Source: Branchiostoma floridae (Eukaryota; Chordata; Leptocardii; Amphioxiformes; Branchiostomatidae). Taken from it: DNA of 64,000 nucleotides. Shown piece after piece: positions 22,073-55,662 of this stretch. The notes beneath the pieces were generated by a model that worked only from the letters and a program-made list of their open reading frames with translations, had not been told where the DNA came from and made no database searches. The stretch spans positions 9,073,871 to 9,137,870 of the forward strand of contig NC_049990.1 of assembly GCF_000003815.2 (NCBI RefSeq), in the 5' to 3' direction. Both the position numbers and the translations under genes were made by a program. Position 1 is the first letter of the stretch; each line of letters begins with the position of its first letter.

Positions 22073-22443
22073 CAAGCCGGCCAACACACACCAAGTTCTC
22101 GGCCCTTTTCCTTACTTTCCGTCTTCTGGAGTATCTTAAAGGGTAAAGGATTATCCTTAAAAGCGACCTTAGGAGGACAGGTTTTCTAAACACGTCTGAA
22201 GTACGAGGAAATCCTATGTAAATCAAAAGACATTGCTCAAACATTGGCGACAGTTTAGTCAACACAGGCTACTGGTAACTATACACAAATCGTCACGGAA
22301 GAATACTCCTACACCGCCTCTGCAACGGTGTACAGGGGCTCCTCTTACAGTAAGCTGTCAAGGAGCCCTCTCGGGTGTTGTTTTTGTTGTAGGTTTCCCA
22401 TTTGTCACCAGAAAGGATACTTGTTGGAGGATAAAAGGGCATA

Positions 22444-45700: not shown

Positions 45701-47126
45701 GTTTGATCTGCTGCTTCTTCCCGAATGTCCAGCTTGTTCTGTTGGTGCAAAACATAAAAAAACAATCAGATACTGCTAGTGGTACATTAATACAACATAT
45801 ACATTTGTAGTACATAATACACCAAAGAACATGTGTAACAATTCCGATTTACAAATACAATAATCAGAAAACAATGGTCACTGCAGGTTTTGAAAGCTAT
45901 CTTTTACATTTCAGGGGCACCCCTAATTTGTTTGTATCTTAGCTTACAAATTATATGTATGCATATTCTTTTCTGTCATAATAGATGTTAAATGAAAGCA
46001 TTTTCAACATGCTCAGCTCTTAAAAAATTGAGGCAGATTTCAAGAATCCTTTCAACTTTAGAGTGACCAGTGTTATGGATACTCTGGTATCCATCATATT
46101 CAGCTCCTACGATCACCTTTCTTTATGCATTCATGCAAATTACCAAGAGGCGTGAGGAAGTTGAATGTACTGGAGTAGATTAGACATTTATTTGTACACA
46201 AAAATGCAGTATATGATTGTTAAAAATTTGACCTGTGCTCTGCCCAGTGGGGCAGAAATGCACAATAAAGGTCTTAATTTGTTTAATGGAGACAGAAACT
46301 ATTCTGCAGGAAAGTGATCGTTGGAGCAAATGGAGCTAGAATAGGACAGATTCCAGGCTTGTTAAGTTGGAGACTCACACGATCTTTAGTACTGGGGGAT
46401 CCGGGAGTAGACGGAGACGGAGTGCTTTGTACATATGCATTCTGTGAGGAGAGAGGCAGTAGTGCTAGCACAAGGTGCAGGTGATATACAGTAGAGTACA
46501 GTAAGCATAGCAACAAGAGAAACTAGTCTGGTGCAGAAAAAAAGAGTACAAAGTTACAGCTTGGAATCACACATGTAAGTGTACAGTTAAGTTCCTAGTT
46601 CAGTTCTACAAGATGATGAGAATATACATACATTTTTGCAACTTTTTACAAGTTCTTGCTCAAGAATTTGAGTCAATATACATTAATATCATTCAAAAAT
46701 CAATTACTGTAAATTCATTTATTTTCTCGAGGATTGTCATCAAGCCTCCACACCTACATGATCGATGACAGGGAACAACAGACGATAACCGGATAATGAG
46801 TGACTTAATTTTGTGATAATATTAAAGGGAAGGAAGTTTTTGCCACAAGTTTGCAGTGCAGTATAAATTGGAAAACCATCTTTGCTGAGTTTTGGGGAGA
46901 TCACTACAAAAATAGCCACAAACATTTCAAGATTCACAGTAACGTGGTCTGTGTACATGTATCAGTGGATATTTACACTTACCCGCGAGTCAATCTCTGC
47001 AAACACATCGTTGAGCACTTGTAAGAGTTGCAGGGGTTCCAGCGCATCGAAGCTAATGAGATTATAGTTTCTCTTGAACGGCTCCTTGTTCAAGGTTTCC
47101 ACAATGAACTTCAGCTGCTCACTCAT
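33796..47126 (-). CDS. IFT81: Intraflagellar transport protein 81
   Basis: IFT-B core protein that pairs with IFT74 and carries tubulin in cilia; its N-terminal calponin-like (CH) domain binds tubulin. Coding exons, transcript order: 47126-46983, 46441-46379, 45738-45641, 45280-45100, 44683-44594, 44028-43852, 43329-43245, 42675-42608, 42032-41937, 41475-41380, 40978-40832, 40120-39971, 37526-37398, 36789-36700, 36265-36179, 35888-35817, 35261-35176, 34422-34377, 33990-33796. All GT-AG and frames join; 2100 nt, 699 aa. Without the second exon it is 678 aa, near human length (676). Start [20 protein letters not shown]; marker strings [56 protein letters not shown], end EERLVL. A leader exon begins beyond 47842; the coding exon's acceptor is at 47145. 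Confidence 0.95.
34736..35075 (-). mobile_element. hAT-type MITE, second copy
   Basis: Same family as 15445-15796 but reversed. Ends CAGGGCTCTAGCCAGC/GCTGGCTAGAGCCCTG and a perfect 8-bp target duplication CTCACTAG (34728-34735, 35076-35083). Lies in an IFT81 intron. Confidence 0.9.
35311..35585 (+). mobile_element. tRNA-headed SINE with tail shared with the 5S SINE
   Basis: A box TGGCCGAGTGGG at 35313 and B box GAGTTTAATCC at 35354, then a body and the tail AGTGGACTAGTCGCCTACTG...TGTGTGGCCCAGGGCTAC (35468-35520). The tail resembles the 5S-headed SINE at 19215-19290 (minus). Confidence 0.65.
36393..36625 (+). mobile_element. tRNA-derived SINE
   Basis: A-box-like TGGCATAACTTCAGG near 36400 and B box GGGCTCGAATCCTG near 36443, followed by a body with TATCGAAAAGAGTAGGGATC, which also occurs in the MCCC1 intron at 13890 and 14050. 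Confidence 0.55.
37014..37370 (+). repeat. Tandem duplication (~178 bp) in an IFT81 intron
   Basis: Two direct copies: GGTTACACACAACACAGTAA...GGTTTGGGTCGAAGC-like and GGTTACACCCATAGTAATG...GGTTTGGATCGAAGC, at about 37014-37180 and 37192-37367. Confidence 0.6.
38886..39089 (-). CDS. Exon-like open frame nested in an IFT81 intron
   Basis: 68 codons from ATG at 39089 (directly after CTTACAG) to a donor TTG|GTGAAA. It reads [20 protein letters not shown], a middle [20 protein letters not shown] and a basic end. The local sequence (38160-39330) is far richer in CpG than the rest of the intron and has promoter-like motifs (TGCGCA, AAGATGGCGG). It may be a nested gene's exon, a captured gene piece in a transposon, or chance. 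No partner exon found. Confidence 0.3.
42894..43100. mobile_element. Mariner-like MITE (CTGTAAATGCA ends)
   Basis: CTGTAAATGCA at 42894 and TGCATTTACAG ending 43100, flanked by TA on both sides. Interior has repeated TTCGCGG motifs. Related copies: 46707-46939 and partial ends at about 40390-40460 and 43780-43835. Confidence 0.75.
46379..46441 (-). other. IFT81: IFT81 21-codon cassette exon (Ser/Thr-Pro rich)
   Basis: 63 nt, phase 0 on both sides, with acceptor CCTCACAG and donor CGT|GTGAGT. It encodes [16 protein letters not shown] after NAYVQ. Skipping it joins EIDSR to NKLDIREE, matching the continuous EIDPKQLVDIREE of the human protein as I recall it. Confidence 0.75.
46707..46939. mobile_element. 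Mariner-like MITE, second copy
   Basis: CTGTAAATTCATTTATTTTC at the left and GATTCACAG at the right, with TA flanks, in the intron between the first coding exon and the cassette exon of IFT81. Confidence 0.65.
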
Positions 47127-47316
47127 CTTGGCAGTCGATCAGAGTCTGTGGCAGAAAAAAATGTTGGTCGGCATGCTATAAACAGTTAAATCAAGCAAGG
47201 TCTTTTCTAATTTCTTTACAGCAGCAGTAAAAATGTGAAAAAGTCTTACTGACAGGTGGAACAGCAACACATCTTAATAACCCAACATCTTGTCAAAGAA
47301 TCATTAAAAAGGCTCA

Positions 47317-47470
47317 AGGGGTACAGTGATCACATAGAAAGCAGAAGGCTGGACGTTCGATGCCCAGCCATGATATCATCCATTCCTCAGCATTAAATTG
47401 TTCTTATAGTTAAGAAATCTAAAGAAGTCTTATTTTTGCACTCTTATACAGGATCAAGCTCATGGTTTGA
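47317..47470 (+). mobile_element. Possible tRNA-like SINE
   Basis: B-box-like ACGTTCGATGCCC near 47352 after an A-box-like stretch, then a body with ACTCTTATACAGGATC. Weak. Confidence 0.3.
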
Positions 47471-47845
47471 GTTAGGCCTTTGGGTCGACACAACTTGACA
47501 GGATCACAAGGTTATCAAACTTTGAGTTTGAAAGGAACATTCTGTTTCTGTCAATACTCAATAGTGCCAAAAGCTCTCACAGGAACATCCTGCGCATTGA
47601 GCCATAAAAATTCTTATTAATAGGAACATGCTGTCAACAGTGAAAAAAAAAATCTTATTGACAGGAACATTTTATTCACAACGTTGCTAAGACAAAATTA
47701 TGTGTAAACTCTCTACTCGAGTACTGGCACACATTTTCTTCAAATAATTGCAGGATCAATCTATATAATTGCGTGTCTTTATCATACACAAGCACTCATA
47801 GAATACACAAGGATCTTGAAAATACAAAATTAACATATTACATAC

Positions 47846-48209
47846 CTTAGCAGCGTGGAAAATACGCAAAAATTAAGATAACTGACCTGCCCACCTGTTT
47901 CAAACTTTCCTCTAGAAACTATGCAAGAGGTCCCGGATGTTGACCTTTGACAAGCATTTCAACCATTCCATTAAAAAATAAGGGGTGATTTTAGATTTTA
48001 TATGTTTCTTAAAATTTTCAACAAAAGACCAGTTACTAACGTGTAAAATCTACAATCTAAACATATCTTTGTTGAAAATTGTCTTTCTTCTTGCTTATGG
48101 ATTGAAACTCTCTGTATTTTTTAAAAATGTTTTCACTCTCCTTGAAACAAAATGGTTTACTCAGATAACGCGAGACGCAGCGAGAAGACACGTCACTTCA
48201 AGAAACATC
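47846..48209. promoter_or_regulatory. Divergent promoter region of IFT81 and SPCS2
   Basis: An IFT81 leader-exon donor is visible on the minus strand at 47842 (TTAGC|... with GTATGTAA), and SPCS2 begins at 48210, so the two start sites are within a few hundred bases, head-to-head. No TATA box is seen. Confidence 0.5.
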
Positions 48210-51200
48210 ATGGCTGACAGCGATAAAAAGAAAGCAACCCTGCCGGTAACTTGTCCCTTCCTCCTGCTTTGATACATTATTTTAGGTCATAAGGCAATGA
48301 TATTGATGCATGAGGTAAACCAAGAGGTACACAGTCCAGATTTATGCTCTTAAACGGCACACATGATGAAAAGATATGGTTTTTCGTTGTCACGTGTAGG
48401 AATTAGCGGAGGGACCCATGCGTTTGCAGTTCGGATACTGATTTTTAGCCGCACCAAAAACTGAAATTTCTCTTCTATGCGTAAACTGCCTTTCTTAGTT
48501 TCATCAATGAATACTACAGACATAGCATGCCAGAAGTAACACATTACTAGCAGCCGCGCAGCCCTCAGAAGAACCGTTCCTCGTAAAGGTCTGCTATATC
48601 ATATAATAACTCACCATATGGAAAAAAAAATTATGGTTTCTCATGGCAGTCATGCATAGCCACCTGCTCGAAACAACAACAACAATCAAACACTTTTTAT
48701 CTTTTACGGACGCATCTCACGTGGCTAAGTAGCTTAAAATGATGCTTTGGGTGATATGTTTAATGTGAATGCCCCGAGACATACACAAAACACGCCTAAA
48801 TATGGTATGAAATATGGTGTAGACAAGAGCTGTTTACAAGTTAGTAGGGCCTTCAAATATGACCTCTTCCATATGTGGTTTAAACTGTGAACAGACTAAA
48901 GATGCTCAAATTCATGCTCGTTAATGCATTTCTTCTTTTTAGTTTGGGGCAGACGAAAAACCAATCAAGGTGGACAAGTGGGATGGCAGTGCGGTTAAGA
49001 ATGCCCTGGATGATGTGGCTAAGAAGGTACGACAAGTGGATTATGGCTACATACAAGTATCAGTACCTGGACAAAAGCTGTATTTTCTCTAAACTTGTGC
49101 GTTGTTCAATGTTTGTCTTTTGTATTGCAGTATTGGTCAAAATTCAACAATGTGACTAGGCTTATTCATAGTTGTAAGTGTGCATGCATTGTGAGTATAT
49201 GTGAAAGTTGAAGGCCAATGGCAATACATTAAGAAGGGCTAGAGGCCTCCAATATTGACATAATATTAGCCAAGTACATGTGAACTTCAAATCATTAACT
49301 AGCTCATTCATGCACCAAATAGCAATTGCTCAAGCAACTGGATATGATTTTGAAAACGTCTGAATGTTTCCAAAATCATATCCAGTTCTTTGAGTAATTG
49401 CTATTTGGTGCATCTTATTTCCGAGATTTCTAACCTTCATCGGCATAGCTTATTCATGTGTCTACATTTCCTGATTTCTCGCTCGAAAATTTCCCGCGTG
49501 CTACTTCAGATCCTGACGGATAACGATTGTGGGTATGGCTACGTGGAGAACTTCGTGCTGATGGATACGCGACTTCTCATCTGCACGGTGTCGGTGATGT
49601 TTGCGCTGGCTGCCCTGGTGTACGATTATCTGCGACCCTTCCCGGACTCGCGACCTGTCCTGATATTGTGTGTCATTTCATATCCTTTTGATGCCGTATC
49701 TTTCCATGCTTGATCACAGTAGTATATACAAGCGTGAATAAGTTGCAGAAATACATCCATAACCATAAGATTTTGCCACTCAGAAAGTTGCATTTGGTAC
49801 TACCGCTTTTTAAGACCAGAGAAAACTGCTTGATGGTGCTTTGTGCTTGTATATCTTTGATGTGTACTTGAACTTATTGAAAAGTCTTTAAAAATAGATT
49901 TGAGATATCTGTGTTTTTTCTCCAACATAGTAGTAAATCAATATGATGAGCAACAGTTACTAAAAGTTTCACAAGGACTCAATAGGCTATAAAGCAGGGC
50001 TCGAAATCAACATAGTCCCGGGGCACCAAAAAATTTAGTCCGGGAACACTAAAAATCACTTTGGGACCTTTTTTGGGACGGTAAAAAAATTATCAATATC
50101 AGAATGTAAACCAATCATACGTTTGTCAGGTGCGTGACCTAGCTTTTGGTTCCCAGTCCTAAGGCCCCCAAATTTGATATGTGACTGTGCAATTACAGTG
50201 TGCGTTTGATCTGCAAATACACTAAATTTAACATCTATATATAGTACCATTATTGATGATATTATTACACAAAATACAAATGTTTTCCACAGACAAAAAA
50301 CTACTTCTTCCCAACTTCCACTTGTTTTGCTACTTAAGTTACAGCAAGTGGTCCTGTAAAGGACTGTAGTCTAGAGTACCAATGCTATTACACAAAATAC
50401 AATTTTTTCCACAGACAAAAATCTTTCTTCCCAACTTCCACGTGTTATGTTTGGTTTGTCTCAAATTTCTGGAGATATGTGGGACTGTTTGTCTAATAAT
50501 AGATCAGACAAGACACGTTTGAATCTGCATTGATTTTGAGTTTATTGTAATTGACAATTAGTTAATATAGACAGAAATATTGTACTCTGAGTCTGACTCA
50601 ACTTTATTGTTGTGATACGGGACTTCCTAAAAACCTGCTTGGGACCATCCATCCTCACTTCGGGACGATTGGAATTTATTTTTGGGAACACTTCTGGGAC
50701 AATAGAGAAAACAGTTAATTTCGAGGCCTGATAAAGCTTTATTAGTATACTAAAACAGTGGTCAATTAATGACTCACAATTCTAGATTTGCAGTAGAGAT
50801 ACACTCATACCTTTTGCTGTCTTAAGAAGCTGGTCTTAAACAATCTATGCTAATATGGTGATAAGGTGGTTTGTGATACATTGCAGGCTATATGTCAAAT
50901 TTGAAGGTCCCTGGCCATTCTTTATGTATTGCCAGGGGCCTTCAACTTTCTATATATTACTAAGAAAAAAAAAAAGTAACAATGTGTTACTCATAAGTGA
51001 AAGCCCTTAAGGTCTATTCCCTAATTATTGTAACCCACAAAATTAGGCTTCACAGGGTCCTCGCGCTACTGTGGCATTGAATATTTGCTCCTTGAATGTT
51101 GGAATTGAAAGGAATAGAGTTGCTTCATCACGTAAAAAAGTGCCCCAAAACATTGACTTTGATAAATAATTGAAGTTCTACGACCCTGGTTCAGGCTAAT

Positions 51201-53459
51201 ATTGTTTAGCTTGCCTTTAAGGTAATGTATGATACATGTTTGTCTTTAACCACCACCTCACCTACTTTGTGCTGATGGGAGTGCTGACTGTCTACACAAC
51301 TTTCAAGGAGAAGAATGTGATCCTAGTGGCCCATCAGAAGGACCAGGCAGGAGTGGACCCAGACAACATTTGGACAGTCAGTTCTTCTCTCAGGAGGTTG
51401 GTATATGGTATTGTTACCTCCATGAAACGGGAGGTAATGTTTTGGACGTGTCTTTTTGGGTATACTGAAACTGTGAAAGTTGTAAGGATTTAAGACTTTT
51501 AAACCCCAACAAGCTCTGAAAAGGGAAAACCTGTAACTTAGTAACTAGTACAGGCACCCTGGATTCAGTAACCATTCCAGGGCTCGAAATACTTTTTTCT
51601 GCATACCTGCACGGGTGCAGGTGGCATTGAAAATGACCCGCACCAGACAAATTTTACCTGCACCACTCTGCATTTAGGAAGGATGGATCATACTGAAATT
51701 GTTCAGGAACCAGTATTTTATACTTACTAGGTGGTAACAGTCAATGCAGCTAATAACTATCCACATGCACCCACACCATAGGATTTTTACCTCCATGAAA
51801 TGTCATGGAGGTTATATTTTACCCCGCATTTGTCTGTGTGTGTGTGTGTGTGTCTGTGTGTAAACAAAATAACTCATGAATGGTTGGGTGGATTGGTTTC
51901 ATACTTGGTGTGTTGGTAGTGTGTGATGAAAGCTGGAAATGATTAGATTTTGGACCCCCTAGCGACTCCCCTTGGTACTGCAGCACAATTTCCGGTTTTG
52001 CTATCTCGGTGTTCTGAACATGCTATGGTGACGATTTTTGAATATTAGATAGCTCCTGTGCTCAGAAAAAAATGACATAAGTTTGGGCCCCCTAGCGTCT
52101 AGTTTTGGGACAGCAGGGGCATTTTTGTCAAAAACTTCTGAAGACGATAACTCAAGAAGGGAACAACGGATTTTCATGATTTTTGGTATGTAGATACCTC
52201 AGACAATGTTGTACAAAATGACATACTAATTATGCAAAATAGAAGTACATTTGCATAATTAATGAGGATATTCTATCATGGCAGTTTTTTCAATGTATCT
52301 CTTGTCCTGGATGTGATATGGTCTTGACATTTGGCTGGTAGATTCAGTAGCTTGCAGTGTCATGACAAAGTGGGGCAGGTTTCAGCCCCCTAACATTTAA
52401 TTTCGGAACTGCAGGGGCGTTTTTGTCAAGACATTCCAAAGAGGATAACTGCAGAAAGGATTGATGGATTGGCATCATATTAGGCATGCGGGTACCTTAG
52501 GCAAAGATTTTCATAATGATATACATGTTGTGCAAATGAGGACTTAATTTGCATAATTAATGAGGAAATTGTATAATTCTATTGTTTTCAATAACTAGAC
52601 TTCAATAAATGTAACACATGTTAGTTATGATAGGTGGAATATAAGCAGATACCAAATATGGTAATGAGGAACTTATTTGCATAATTTATGTAAAAGTTGC
52701 AAAACCGCTTTATGATTAATAATGGGAATTTTATAATTGTGACATGTGTACGTTAGTCAATGATGAACAATACCATGCATGAATTATGTAAATGTGTTAG
52801 TCAATTGCATGAAATTTATGAAAGCTCTAAATTTTCATGGAGGTATGAGGTCGCCGAACTCTAGTTATGTATAAAAGTGTTTTTTTTAAAACCTAGTACA
52901 TGGACTAGTGTAGGTTAGGTGCAGGTAGACACCTGCACTAACCTGCATATGCAGGTGGTATTTCGAGCCCTGCATTCAAAGGACTGATTGATGAAAATGA
53001 TTTCTCAGGACAGGGTGGGGTTAACTATGTAAAGATGGGCTGTTTTAATGTTTATTATGAGTAGAGTAGCCTGATTGACTCGCTTATAGCAGTCCACCCA
53101 ACATCCGACCAGCCTCCCCTCTGTGGGGAGAGGCCAGTTACGGCCTTGGACAGCAGAGTTTCTGTTAATCAGGCTATGACTAGAGGTGTTTGCAGTTACC
53201 CAACCAGGTTTGACTGTACTTATAAATTAATTATTTCCTACTTGACCAATCAGTTCTTGCATCTCACCACAGGTTTGATGACATGTACACGCTACACATA
53301 GCCTACCAAGACGGCCAGACCAACCAATCACGAGAGGCGTCCGTGGTGAAGTCCGTTGCCTCGTGGTTTGATGAAGAGGGCACGCTACTCATGGATCTGT
53401 TCACACAGGAAGTCAAGTCCATACACAGCAGCCTACTTACTGAGAAGAAGGAGAAGTAA
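48210..53459 (+). CDS. SPCS2: Signal peptidase complex subunit 2
   Basis: Accessory subunit of the ER signal peptidase. Exons 48210-48245, 48943-49026, 49510-49679, 51262-51396, 53273-53459; 612 nt, 203 aa (human 226, with a longer N-terminus). Start [12 protein letters not shown]; then [15 protein letters not shown], a first membrane helix ~62-80, a second ~90-110, then [16 protein letters not shown] and a basic end EKKEK. Three introns are GT-AG. The third (49680-51261) begins ATATCCTTTT and ends CAC, with TCTTTAAC 12 bases before the end: an AT-AC, U12-type intron that splits codon 97 in the second helix. Only this join restores LCVISYFVLMG, which matches the family. Confidence 0.95.
49311..49412. 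mobile_element. Foldback MITE in an SPCS2 intron
   Basis: Arms 49311-49352 and 49371-49412 are inverted copies (TGCACCAAATAGCAATTGCT / AGTAATTGCTATTTGGTGCA) with an 18-base loop. The right arm and the sequence after it (TAACCTTCATCGGCAT) resemble 44365-44425. Confidence 0.75.
49995..50730 (+). mobile_element. hAT-like non-autonomous element, 6-bp target duplication
   Basis: Ends CAGGGCTCGAAATCAAC and GTTAATTTCGAGGCCTG; flanks ATAAAG on both sides (49989-49994, 50731-50736). An internal ~120-bp segment is duplicated (about 50272 and 50391). It lies inside the SPCS2 AT-AC intron. No transposase. Confidence 0.8.
51413..51440 (+). repeat. Solitary 5' palindrome of a family B-like element
   Basis: TTACCTCC, 8-base loop, GGAGGTAA, 16 bases after the SPCS2 exon ending 51396. 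It resembles the 5' ends of the family B elements. Confidence 0.45.
51578..52972 (+). mobile_element. hAT-like element, 5-bp target duplication, with nested insertion
   Basis: Ends CAGGGCTCGAAATAC and GTATTTCGAGCCCTG; CATTC flanks both sides (51573-51577, 52973-52977). Interior is rich in CCTGCAC/GTGCAGG palindromes. A family B element sits inside at 51787-52864. In the last SPCS2 intron. Confidence 0.75.
51787..52864 (+). mobile_element. Family B Helentron-like element, copy 1
   Basis: 5' end is a palindrome (ACCTCCATGA, AATG, TCATGGAGGT) followed by a TG/TGTC microsatellite. Near the 3' end TCATGGAGGTA recurs as an inverted match, and the element stops at GCCGAACTCTAG followed by T. About 1.08 kb without coding capacity. 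Inserted in the hAT-like element 51578-52972. Confidence 0.7.
53067..53176. mobile_element. Small inverted-repeat element
   Basis: TAGCCTGATT at 53067 and AATCAGGCTA ending 53176, about 110 bp, in the last SPCS2 intron. Confidence 0.4.
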
Positions 53460-53901
53460 TATGTGCTGTACATCTACGAGAGAGTAATTATGTTTTAGTA
53501 GACATGTGTTTGCCACTAACATGACATCAGCCTTGCTGGATGGATCAAGCTGGAAACAGACGAGAAAATTTGAATCATTAGATGTACTGTACTTTGGGAA
53601 ATATTTGCAACGGTTTTATGTACATGGGTTTTGCAGTCCCCCTCCATGTATTTGCAATGTATCAATACTGTATTAAAGAATTGTTTCAGTCACGAACTTG
53701 ACATAAAGAGTTCCGTTCCCCTTCTATATGTACCATGCAAAGTAATTATAGCAATGTAATTATGGCATAAACCACATGCAAATTTAGAGGTCTGACACTC
53801 CTAGCTTCAACCAATCAGCATGCTGGCTGTGATGTCATGTGCAAACACACTGTAGGGATTGTGTCAAACCACAATGTGCATCACAAAAGAAGTAGTTGTG
53901 T

Positions 53902-53907
53902 AATAAA
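53902..53907 (+). terminator. Poly(A) signal, probably of SPCS2
   Basis: AATAAA about 440 bases after the SPCS2 stop codon. Confidence 0.5.
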
Positions 53908-55662
53908 TAGATGTTCAAAGATTAAAGACAAGTTTCAAGTTCAATAAGGACAATTTTCAGACTACGTGCTCAATGCGACGTATCTAAATCCCCTGTCACA
54001 CATAGCTGATCATGACATCTTAAACTTCTCCAGAGCATGGTTCGTAGTTTGTTGGGAGTAAGGTCATCTCTGGTTGGGATTTCGTGATGAGCAAGGTCTT
54101 AAAAAATCATCTGCACCAGCCAACTATTGATTCTGAAAATCAAAGTTGAGAAAAGCCATATACTGCTTGGATGCAGGAGCCAACTGGATGCAGATGTGTG
54201 TGGATTCCTTAAGCTTCTCTTAATCCAGTGCTGACCTTGGTTGGGGAGTGGTCAGGAGCAAGGGAAGGTCGTGAATGTGTGACAGGGGCTTTAGTCATTG
54301 TGTCTTTCTTACTTTTGATGTCTTGTAGGTCACATACAGCATGTAGAGGTAAAGGTTTTGTTGGAAGATTAGATTCTCAAGTGTAAGTGACAAATGAAGT
54401 ATTTCGATACATTTTGTCAAGCTGTTTTTTTGTTGTTGTTGTGAAATACAGCTGTAAAGAAGAACCAGAATTTGTTGACAAACAAAAAAATTTGAATCAT
54501 TCCTGATTTACATTTTACATGTTTAGTTTAAGCACACAGAGACCAGATTTCATGAGTAATGTTCATGTATTTGGGATAATGCAGAAGGTAGAATGGGCGC
54601 CTTTAGATTCCCAAAGTTATGTTATAAATGGTACCTTGTATTGTAGATTGATGGTACCTTGTACCAAAGGAGGCCATAATATGGTATTGTAGATTGATTG
54701 ATGTAGATTCAGTATTTTAGAGGCAATACCTACAATTTGTAGCAATCCCGTGATTCAGTGTTTGAAGTGGGCATGCACGATGAGATGCATTGTGGGAAAT
54801 ATGTCAAAGTTGAAGATTCCTGAGACATAAACAAAACTCATCTGGACATGTGTCAAGCATGTTCTAGACAAATCCTGTTTACAAGTTTGGGGCCTCCACT
54901 TATGACATGTTACCCACAATGCATCCAACTGCAAATGTGCAGTTGAAACTGAAAACTGGCTTATTTTGTCCAAATATGGACATAACATGACCATGTTGCT
55001 ATGTTATGTTCACAATGTTACCCAAGTCAGATTCCTGTTGTTTGGGTATCGGGAGAAAGGAATTAAATGTCAAGTAAGAATGAAAGAGATGAAAACTTCT
55101 TTGTTTGTTTTTGTTTGTTTTGTAACAGCGGGGTATAAATGTAAGTTGTGAAACATGTATCAATCTGTAGATAATCTGTAAACTAATAGTCTCCAAGCAG
55201 ATGTTGGGAGTCTAAATTGTGACATTTTCTTAGCTACCCTTTTCTGTGACATTAGCTCCCTTCAGCATCTGCTTGGAGATTATTACCCTATCTAGTGCCA
55301 ACACCATGTATTGTTAATGTACTATTAGATACAGGCAAAATTGATATAGATATAGGTATAATGGTATAATCTATTCATAACCAGCCCAGATTTACATCAA
55401 GTCGATATATCAGACTATGAAAGCAGAAAAGCTACAATAACAATGCTTTAAATTTTTTATTAGTTCAGTAAATGCTGTATACAATTTCTTGTTGGAAAGC
55501 AGAATACTGCAAAAGTAACGGGTAACATTAAAATCAAGACCCCACCCCCCCTTCATGTTAGTATCTTCCCTTGTCACATGCCCATGACTTCCGCTAGTGG
55601 TGACTTTTAATCCACTTCCTCCCACTGTACCCAAAACCTTGTGGTGGCTACAAGAAGCCAAC
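53908..55662. other. Intergenic region SPCS2 to second CUB-LDLa gene
   Basis: No coding sequence recognised. It contains two small inverted-repeat elements: 54783-54925 (GATGCATTGTGGG / CCCACAATGCATC) and 55185-55283 (AATAGTCTCCAAGCAGATG / CATCTGCTTGGAGATTATT). Confidence 0.6.
55185..55283. mobile_element. MITE with CTCCAAGCAGATG ends
   Basis: ~20-bp inverted ends, about 100 bp in all. Same terminal family as 62177-62426. Confidence 0.6.

Follow-up and report, generated by a model that had tools for sequence, protein, structure and literature searches.

How are the third and fourth exons of SPCS2 joined in the lancelet Branchiostoma floridae, when no AG acceptor leads in an open frame into exon 4? 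The window, by which we mean the whole stretch of DNA analysed, comprises 64,000 bases (1478 of them N) at contig positions 9073871-9137870, and genome-wide searches covered the 513-Mb assembly with its 431 contigs. The SPCS2 gene lies at 48210-53459 of the window on the plus strand (Table 1). We conclude from the signals at this locus and from the components encoded in the genome that intron 3 is almost certainly a real U12-type AT-AC intron, whose removal we attribute to the minor spliceosome.

The gene consists of five exons with 203 codons in an uninterrupted reading frame, and its introns 1, 2 and 4 are of the GT-AG type (phases 0, 0 and 2). SPCS2 is a component of the complex by which signal peptides are cut off. 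The encoded protein matches the Pfam family SPC25 (E-value 1.2e-49), and residues 14-202 align to chain 7p2p_C, which we take to be human signal peptidase complex subunit 2 (SPCS2), with an E-value of 1.4e-75; the sole gap in this alignment comprises three residues within exon 3, approximately 50 residues before the exon 3/4 junction. Across the junction itself the two proteins align without a gap, LCVISYFVLMG in the window facing LCVISYFVMMG in human, which is the restored match that a previous sequence-only reading of this DNA had claimed. That reading had also placed the intron in the middle of the second membrane helix: in a Kyte-Doolittle analysis SPCS2 displays two hydrophobic stretches, at residues about 55-81 and 86-111, and intron 3 falls after residue 96 and hence within the second of these. 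Relatives of SPCS2 were also sought in two further collections, viral_contigs (one pattern match) and genome_contigs (30 pattern matches), with none confirmed; both hold prokaryotic, viral and plasmid sequences and no animals, and this null result is uninformative.

The last base of exon 3 is 49679 (...ATTTC), followed by ATATCCTTTTGA, and the first base of exon 4 is 51262 (CTACTTTGTG...), with TCTTTAACCACCACCTCAC directly upstream. Read upstream from exon 4, the frame stays open to 51233 only and is closed by a TGA at 51230-51232. No AG ends within 51222-51261, leaving the last 39 nucleotides (nt) of intron 3 AG-free: the closest AGs further upstream have their last base 40, 52, 67 and 86 nt from the end of the intron, and the nearest of them lies beyond the in-frame TGA as seen from exon 4. 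The sequence-only reading was thus right in finding no open-frame AG acceptor ahead of exon 4. In a splice-pair scan, donors with their first base at 49600-49799 (GT, GC or AT) were combined with acceptors with their last base at 51100-51339 (AG or AC), and in 157 pairs the frame could be read through as far as the native stop. These comprised 42 GC-AC, 32 GT-AC, 27 AT-AC, 20 GC-AG, 18 GT-AG and 18 AT-AG. Three of these give a protein of 203 residues, and within the scanned region the reference protein sequence is obtained from the AT-AC pair 49680/51261 alone, exactly the intron boundaries that had been proposed. The two other pairs of full length were rejected: GT-AC 49672/51253 restores 203 residues but replaces three of them, AT-AC 49675/51256 likewise restores 203 but replaces two, and the donor motif is missing from both.

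These results bear directly on the foremost alternative, namely that intron 3 belongs to the U2 type, its GT-AG or GC-AG ends lying at other positions, and that the AT-AC reading has been forced upon it. GT and AG dinucleotides do occur nearby, and an open frame is kept by the 18 GT-AG and 20 GC-AG pairs listed above; however, none of the 18 GT-AG pairs comes within six residues of full length, each being off by at least seven residues because none of them is found among the 40 pairs closest in length. A GT-AG pair yielding the same protein, which the sequence-only reading had called for as a counter-example, was sought among all 18 without success, and enumeration of the 20 open-frame GC-AG pairs revealed none that restores the full protein. 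Moreover, the residues that U2-type alternatives would lose are conserved with human SPCS2, and the last 39 nt of the intron offer such alternatives no acceptor. With donors and acceptors scanned over the ranges given above, we regard a U2-type intron as very improbable.

The U12-type AT-AC intron, in turn, carries the signals of its class. The consensus of the U12-type 5' splice site is RTATCCTTT, and ATATCCTTT at 49680 matches it exactly, so that the earlier description of the bases following the exon 3 frame as a classic U12 AT-AC donor holds. Such a match is expected about 1.5 times by composition on both strands of the window (0.89 for ATATCCTTT and 0.66 for GTATCCTTT) and is seen twice, once in each form. 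The donor motif by itself is unremarkable; its placement at the base required by the protein is remarkable, the chance of a match no more than about 20 nt from this place being near 2e-4. The donor forms 6/6 pairs with AAAGGA of the animal's own U6atac and 7/7 pairs, including one wobble, with its own U11. With the 5' end of U1, the donor of intron 3 pairs at no more than 4 of 11 positions, in runs of 2 at most, whereas those of introns 1, 2 and 4 reach 7, 6 and 9 of 11; the weak fit to U1 characteristic of a U12-type donor is therefore displayed by intron 3.

At the opposite end, the branch site consensus of this class is TTCCTTRAC, which lies some 10-15 nt upstream of the 3' end. Here, TCTTTAAC ends 11 nt before the end of intron 3, and its putative branch adenosine, 51249, is separated from that end by 12 nt, in keeping with the earlier proposal of an acceptor ending in CAC with a branch site about 12 bases upstream. 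It pairs 7/7 (one wobble) with GUAAGGA of the animal's own U12, with one A bulged, and is the sole place in intron 3 that can pair with U12 in this manner. Comparable U12-pairable sites occupy 29 of 63,992 plus-strand positions of the window, corresponding to about 0.004 within the 8 allowed positions, and the joint chance of donor and branch site is about 1e-6 in an arithmetic that assumes their independence. The intron thus starts with ATATCCTTTT, ends with TCTTTAAC-CACCACCTCAC, and combines the AT start and AC end of the AT-AC subclass with being the sole full-protein pair among the 157.

Several observations weigh on the other side. The branch site TCTTTAAC differs from TTCCTTRAC by two mismatches and is missed by a scan that allows one. 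When duplex energies were calculated, 408 of 1561 intron 21-mers at least equalled the branch site in their pairing with the U12 segment, 20 of 1572 intron 10-mers at least equalled the donor with the U6atac segment, and, with a 40-nt stretch of U6atac, 180 of 1567 intron segments equalled or beat the donor: free duplex energies single out neither donor nor branch site, and we relied on register-specific pairing instead. Full pairing with both U11 and U6atac, wobbles allowed, is found at 103 of 63,988 plus-strand positions (23 of them starting with AT or GT), and because of these 103 positions such pairing alone is insufficient to define the donor. A retrocopy of SPCS2 with joined exons was not found in a protein search of the assembly, all four matches being to this locus. 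Finally, the passages of PMC3958305 and PMC11039992 that concern the third intron of human SPCS2, considered below, state neither its termini nor its exact codon position.

The genome also contains matches to components of the machinery that such an intron would require. In a genome-wide search, counting small nuclear RNA (snRNA) matches over the Rfam cut-off, all four minor snRNAs were present with one match each: U6atac (133.6 bits), U12 (132.1 bits), U11 (94.1 bits) and U4atac (81.1 bits). The Pfam family CCDC84, which we take to be CENATAC, also has one genome match (E-value 2.9e-68). A passage of PMC11039992 describes CENATAC as needed for U12 introns of the AT-AN type. The U12-type reading is thus backed by the donor, by the branch site and its distance from the AC end, by that end itself, by the continuity of the protein, by the minor snRNAs in the genome and by the published U12 class of the human intron. 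In the splicing route that we propose, U11 would bind the donor at AUAUCCUUUU and U12 would bind UCUUUAAC, bulging the branch adenosine at 51249; U6atac would take over the donor from U11, and exon 3 (ending ATTTC) would be joined to exon 4 (starting CTAC), generating ILCVISYFVLMG in the second hydrophobic and presumably membrane-spanning segment. The AT-AC intron fixes the likely gene model: to judge from the splice-pair scan, SPCS2 would come out truncated or wrongly joined here if only GT-AG introns were annotated.

Alternatively, the major spliceosome might remove an AT-AC intron, perhaps by means of a variant U1 able to read AT donors, as has been proposed in human (PMC13172311). In passages of that study, an AT donor site of human SPCS2 is used in wild-type as well as in variant U1.3/.4 knock-out cells, and vU1.3/.4 is suggested as a possible reader of AT donors, the SPCS2 intron being unnamed there; its main text uses each of the terms U11, U12 and minor a single time, in the introduction. 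Against this, the donor of intron 3 gains little from the two U1 variants compared here: its 4/11 pairs with U1 become 5/11 (longest run 3) with a C8-to-U variant and remain 4/11 with a C9-to-U variant, as compared to 7/7 with its own U11. Furthermore, the third intron of human SPCS2 depends on U12 splicing, because it is misprocessed in RNPC3 patients according to PMC3958305. We consider splicing of this intron by the major spliceosome to be extremely improbable. That an assembly error or a pseudogene has left a broken exon end mimicking an AT-AC intron is scarcely credible either, for although the 1478 N in the window represent assembly gaps, 47000-55500 is free of N, none of the five exons is broken or out of frame and the four matches of the protein search, 4/4, lie at this locus.

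Table 1. Features of the SPCS2 locus, in window coordinates.
Feature	Positions	Strand	Basis or remarks
U12-type AT-AC intron (SPCS2 intron 3), 1582 nt, phase 2	49680..51261	+	sole full-protein splice pair of 157; snRNA pairing
U12-type 5' splice site ATATCCTTTT	49680..49689	+	exact RTATCCTTT; 6/6 pairs with own U6atac, 7/7 with own U11
U12 branch site TCTTTAAC, putative branch A 51249	51243..51250	+	7/7 pairs with own U12
AC 3' terminus of intron 3	51260..51261	+	sequence, splice-pair scan
SPCS2 exon 1, coding part	48210..48245	+	ATG, frame, GT donor next
SPCS2 exon 2	48943..49026	+	AG/GT flanks; human SPCS2 alignment
SPCS2 exon 3	49510..49679	+	end ...CTG ATA TTG TGT GTC ATT TC; frame, human SPCS2 alignment
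SPCS2 exon 4	51262..51396	+	start C TAC TTT GTG; frame, human SPCS2 alignment
SPCS2 exon 5, TAA stop included	53273..53459	+	gene model frame
Inverted-repeat DNA element in intron 3, 736 bp, ends CAGGGCTCGAAAT / ATTTCGAGGCCTG	49995..50730		ATAAAG flanks (6 bp)

Intron 3 also hosts an inverted-repeat DNA element, whose insertion has disrupted neither the 5' nor the 3' end of the U12 intron. The sequence-only reading had described it as hAT-like: an element is indeed present, but the 8-bp duplication of a classic hAT is not, the family having 5 or 6 bp. At least 66 genome matches to the 736-bp element were found, and its 30 best places were examined as loci (the L005-L034 series), with duplication lengths of 4-10 bp checked. 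Paired element ends are present in 27 of these 30 loci and an exact flanking duplication in 24, always of 5 or 6 bp, the loci without one being L012, L018, L022, L024, L027 and L031 (one flank of L031 being N). As some loci represent the same insertion, the distinct flank pairs number 22 (duplications of 5 bp in 12 pairs and of 6 bp in the other 10), a few of which belong to neighbouring or nested copies and not to the matched copy. A classic hAT with an 8-bp target-site duplication was accordingly rejected, with no exact duplication above 6 bp in the 30 loci. Passages of PMC12730594 define the hAT5 and hAT6 groups by target-site duplications of 5 and 6 bp, respectively, and the family in intron 3 would fit with these: to judge from its DNA copies, it shares their duplication lengths and short inverted ends (CAGGGCTCGAAAT), but differs in that 5 and 6 bp are mixed among the copies retrieved with one 736-bp query, with neither group alone matched. 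SPCS2 intron 4 contains a related element (51578-52972) that carries these inverted ends as well, 15 nt in length and 100% complementary, and is bordered by CATTC left and right.

Elsewhere in the window, the second exact donor motif, GTATCCTTT, is found on the minus strand at 22412 (region 22301-22420). At 22357, and so 55 nt further downstream, CTCCTTGAC might serve as a branch site, and it is followed closely by an AG. No recognisable gene was seen in the open frames surrounding this motif, where no family search was made, and its occurrence is probably due to chance. An open frame at 46962-47138 on the minus strand contains 41 residues that appear to resemble the start of IFT81, which suggests that SPCS2 has a neighbour in head-to-head orientation. 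The window yielded no tRNA.

Comparison with known systems begins with human SPCS2, whose intron 3 is described as U12-type in passages of PMC3958305 and PMC11039992; the lancelet intron resembles it in gene, in being the third intron and in U12 class. It is most likely orthologous to the human intron and retained from a common ancestor, a positional homology suggested by gene, order and class. Since the human intron has already been published as U12-type, the lancelet intron is largely expected, as an orthologue within an established class, and it provides one further example of how long minor introns can persist. For the lancelet itself, no report of U12-type or minor introns in amphioxus, Branchiostoma or lancelets was found in the literature searched, with one lancelet paper containing U12 in its reference list only; PMC5848618 deals with transcript ends of Spcs2 and is irrelevant to intron 3. 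Whether ancestry extends beyond the U12 class to the AT-AC ends is a separate matter: we lean slightly towards the view that these ends, too, are ancestral to lancelet and human, and that the human AT donor in PMC13172311 is the same ancient minor-spliceosome donor. If so, the change in AT-donor usage upon knock-out of variant U1 would reflect a direct or indirect effect on minor splicing and not U1 reading AT, and, provided that the human AT donor is that of the third intron, an AT donor would be common to a distant animal in which it is accompanied by full minor-spliceosome signals. Our findings bear both on studies that monitor minor splicing through human SPCS2 intron 3 (passages of PMC3958305 and PMC11039992) and on the SPCS2 AT donor that has been discussed in variant-U1 terms (passages of PMC13172311).

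Within the U12 class, AT-AC introns make up 26% of human U12-type introns according to a passage of PMC7367187, and minor introns are biased away from phase 0 according to one of PMC10639083, with which the phase 2 of intron 3 agrees. There is nothing in the lancelet intron that is out of line with its class and no new mechanism is involved. It shares with the AT-AC subclass the ATATCCTTT donor, a branch site that is close to the consensus and 12 nt away from the intron end, the AC terminus and a phase other than 0; the one difference noted is that the branch site TCTTTAAC has T for the second C of the consensus, a change that forms a G-U wobble with U12.

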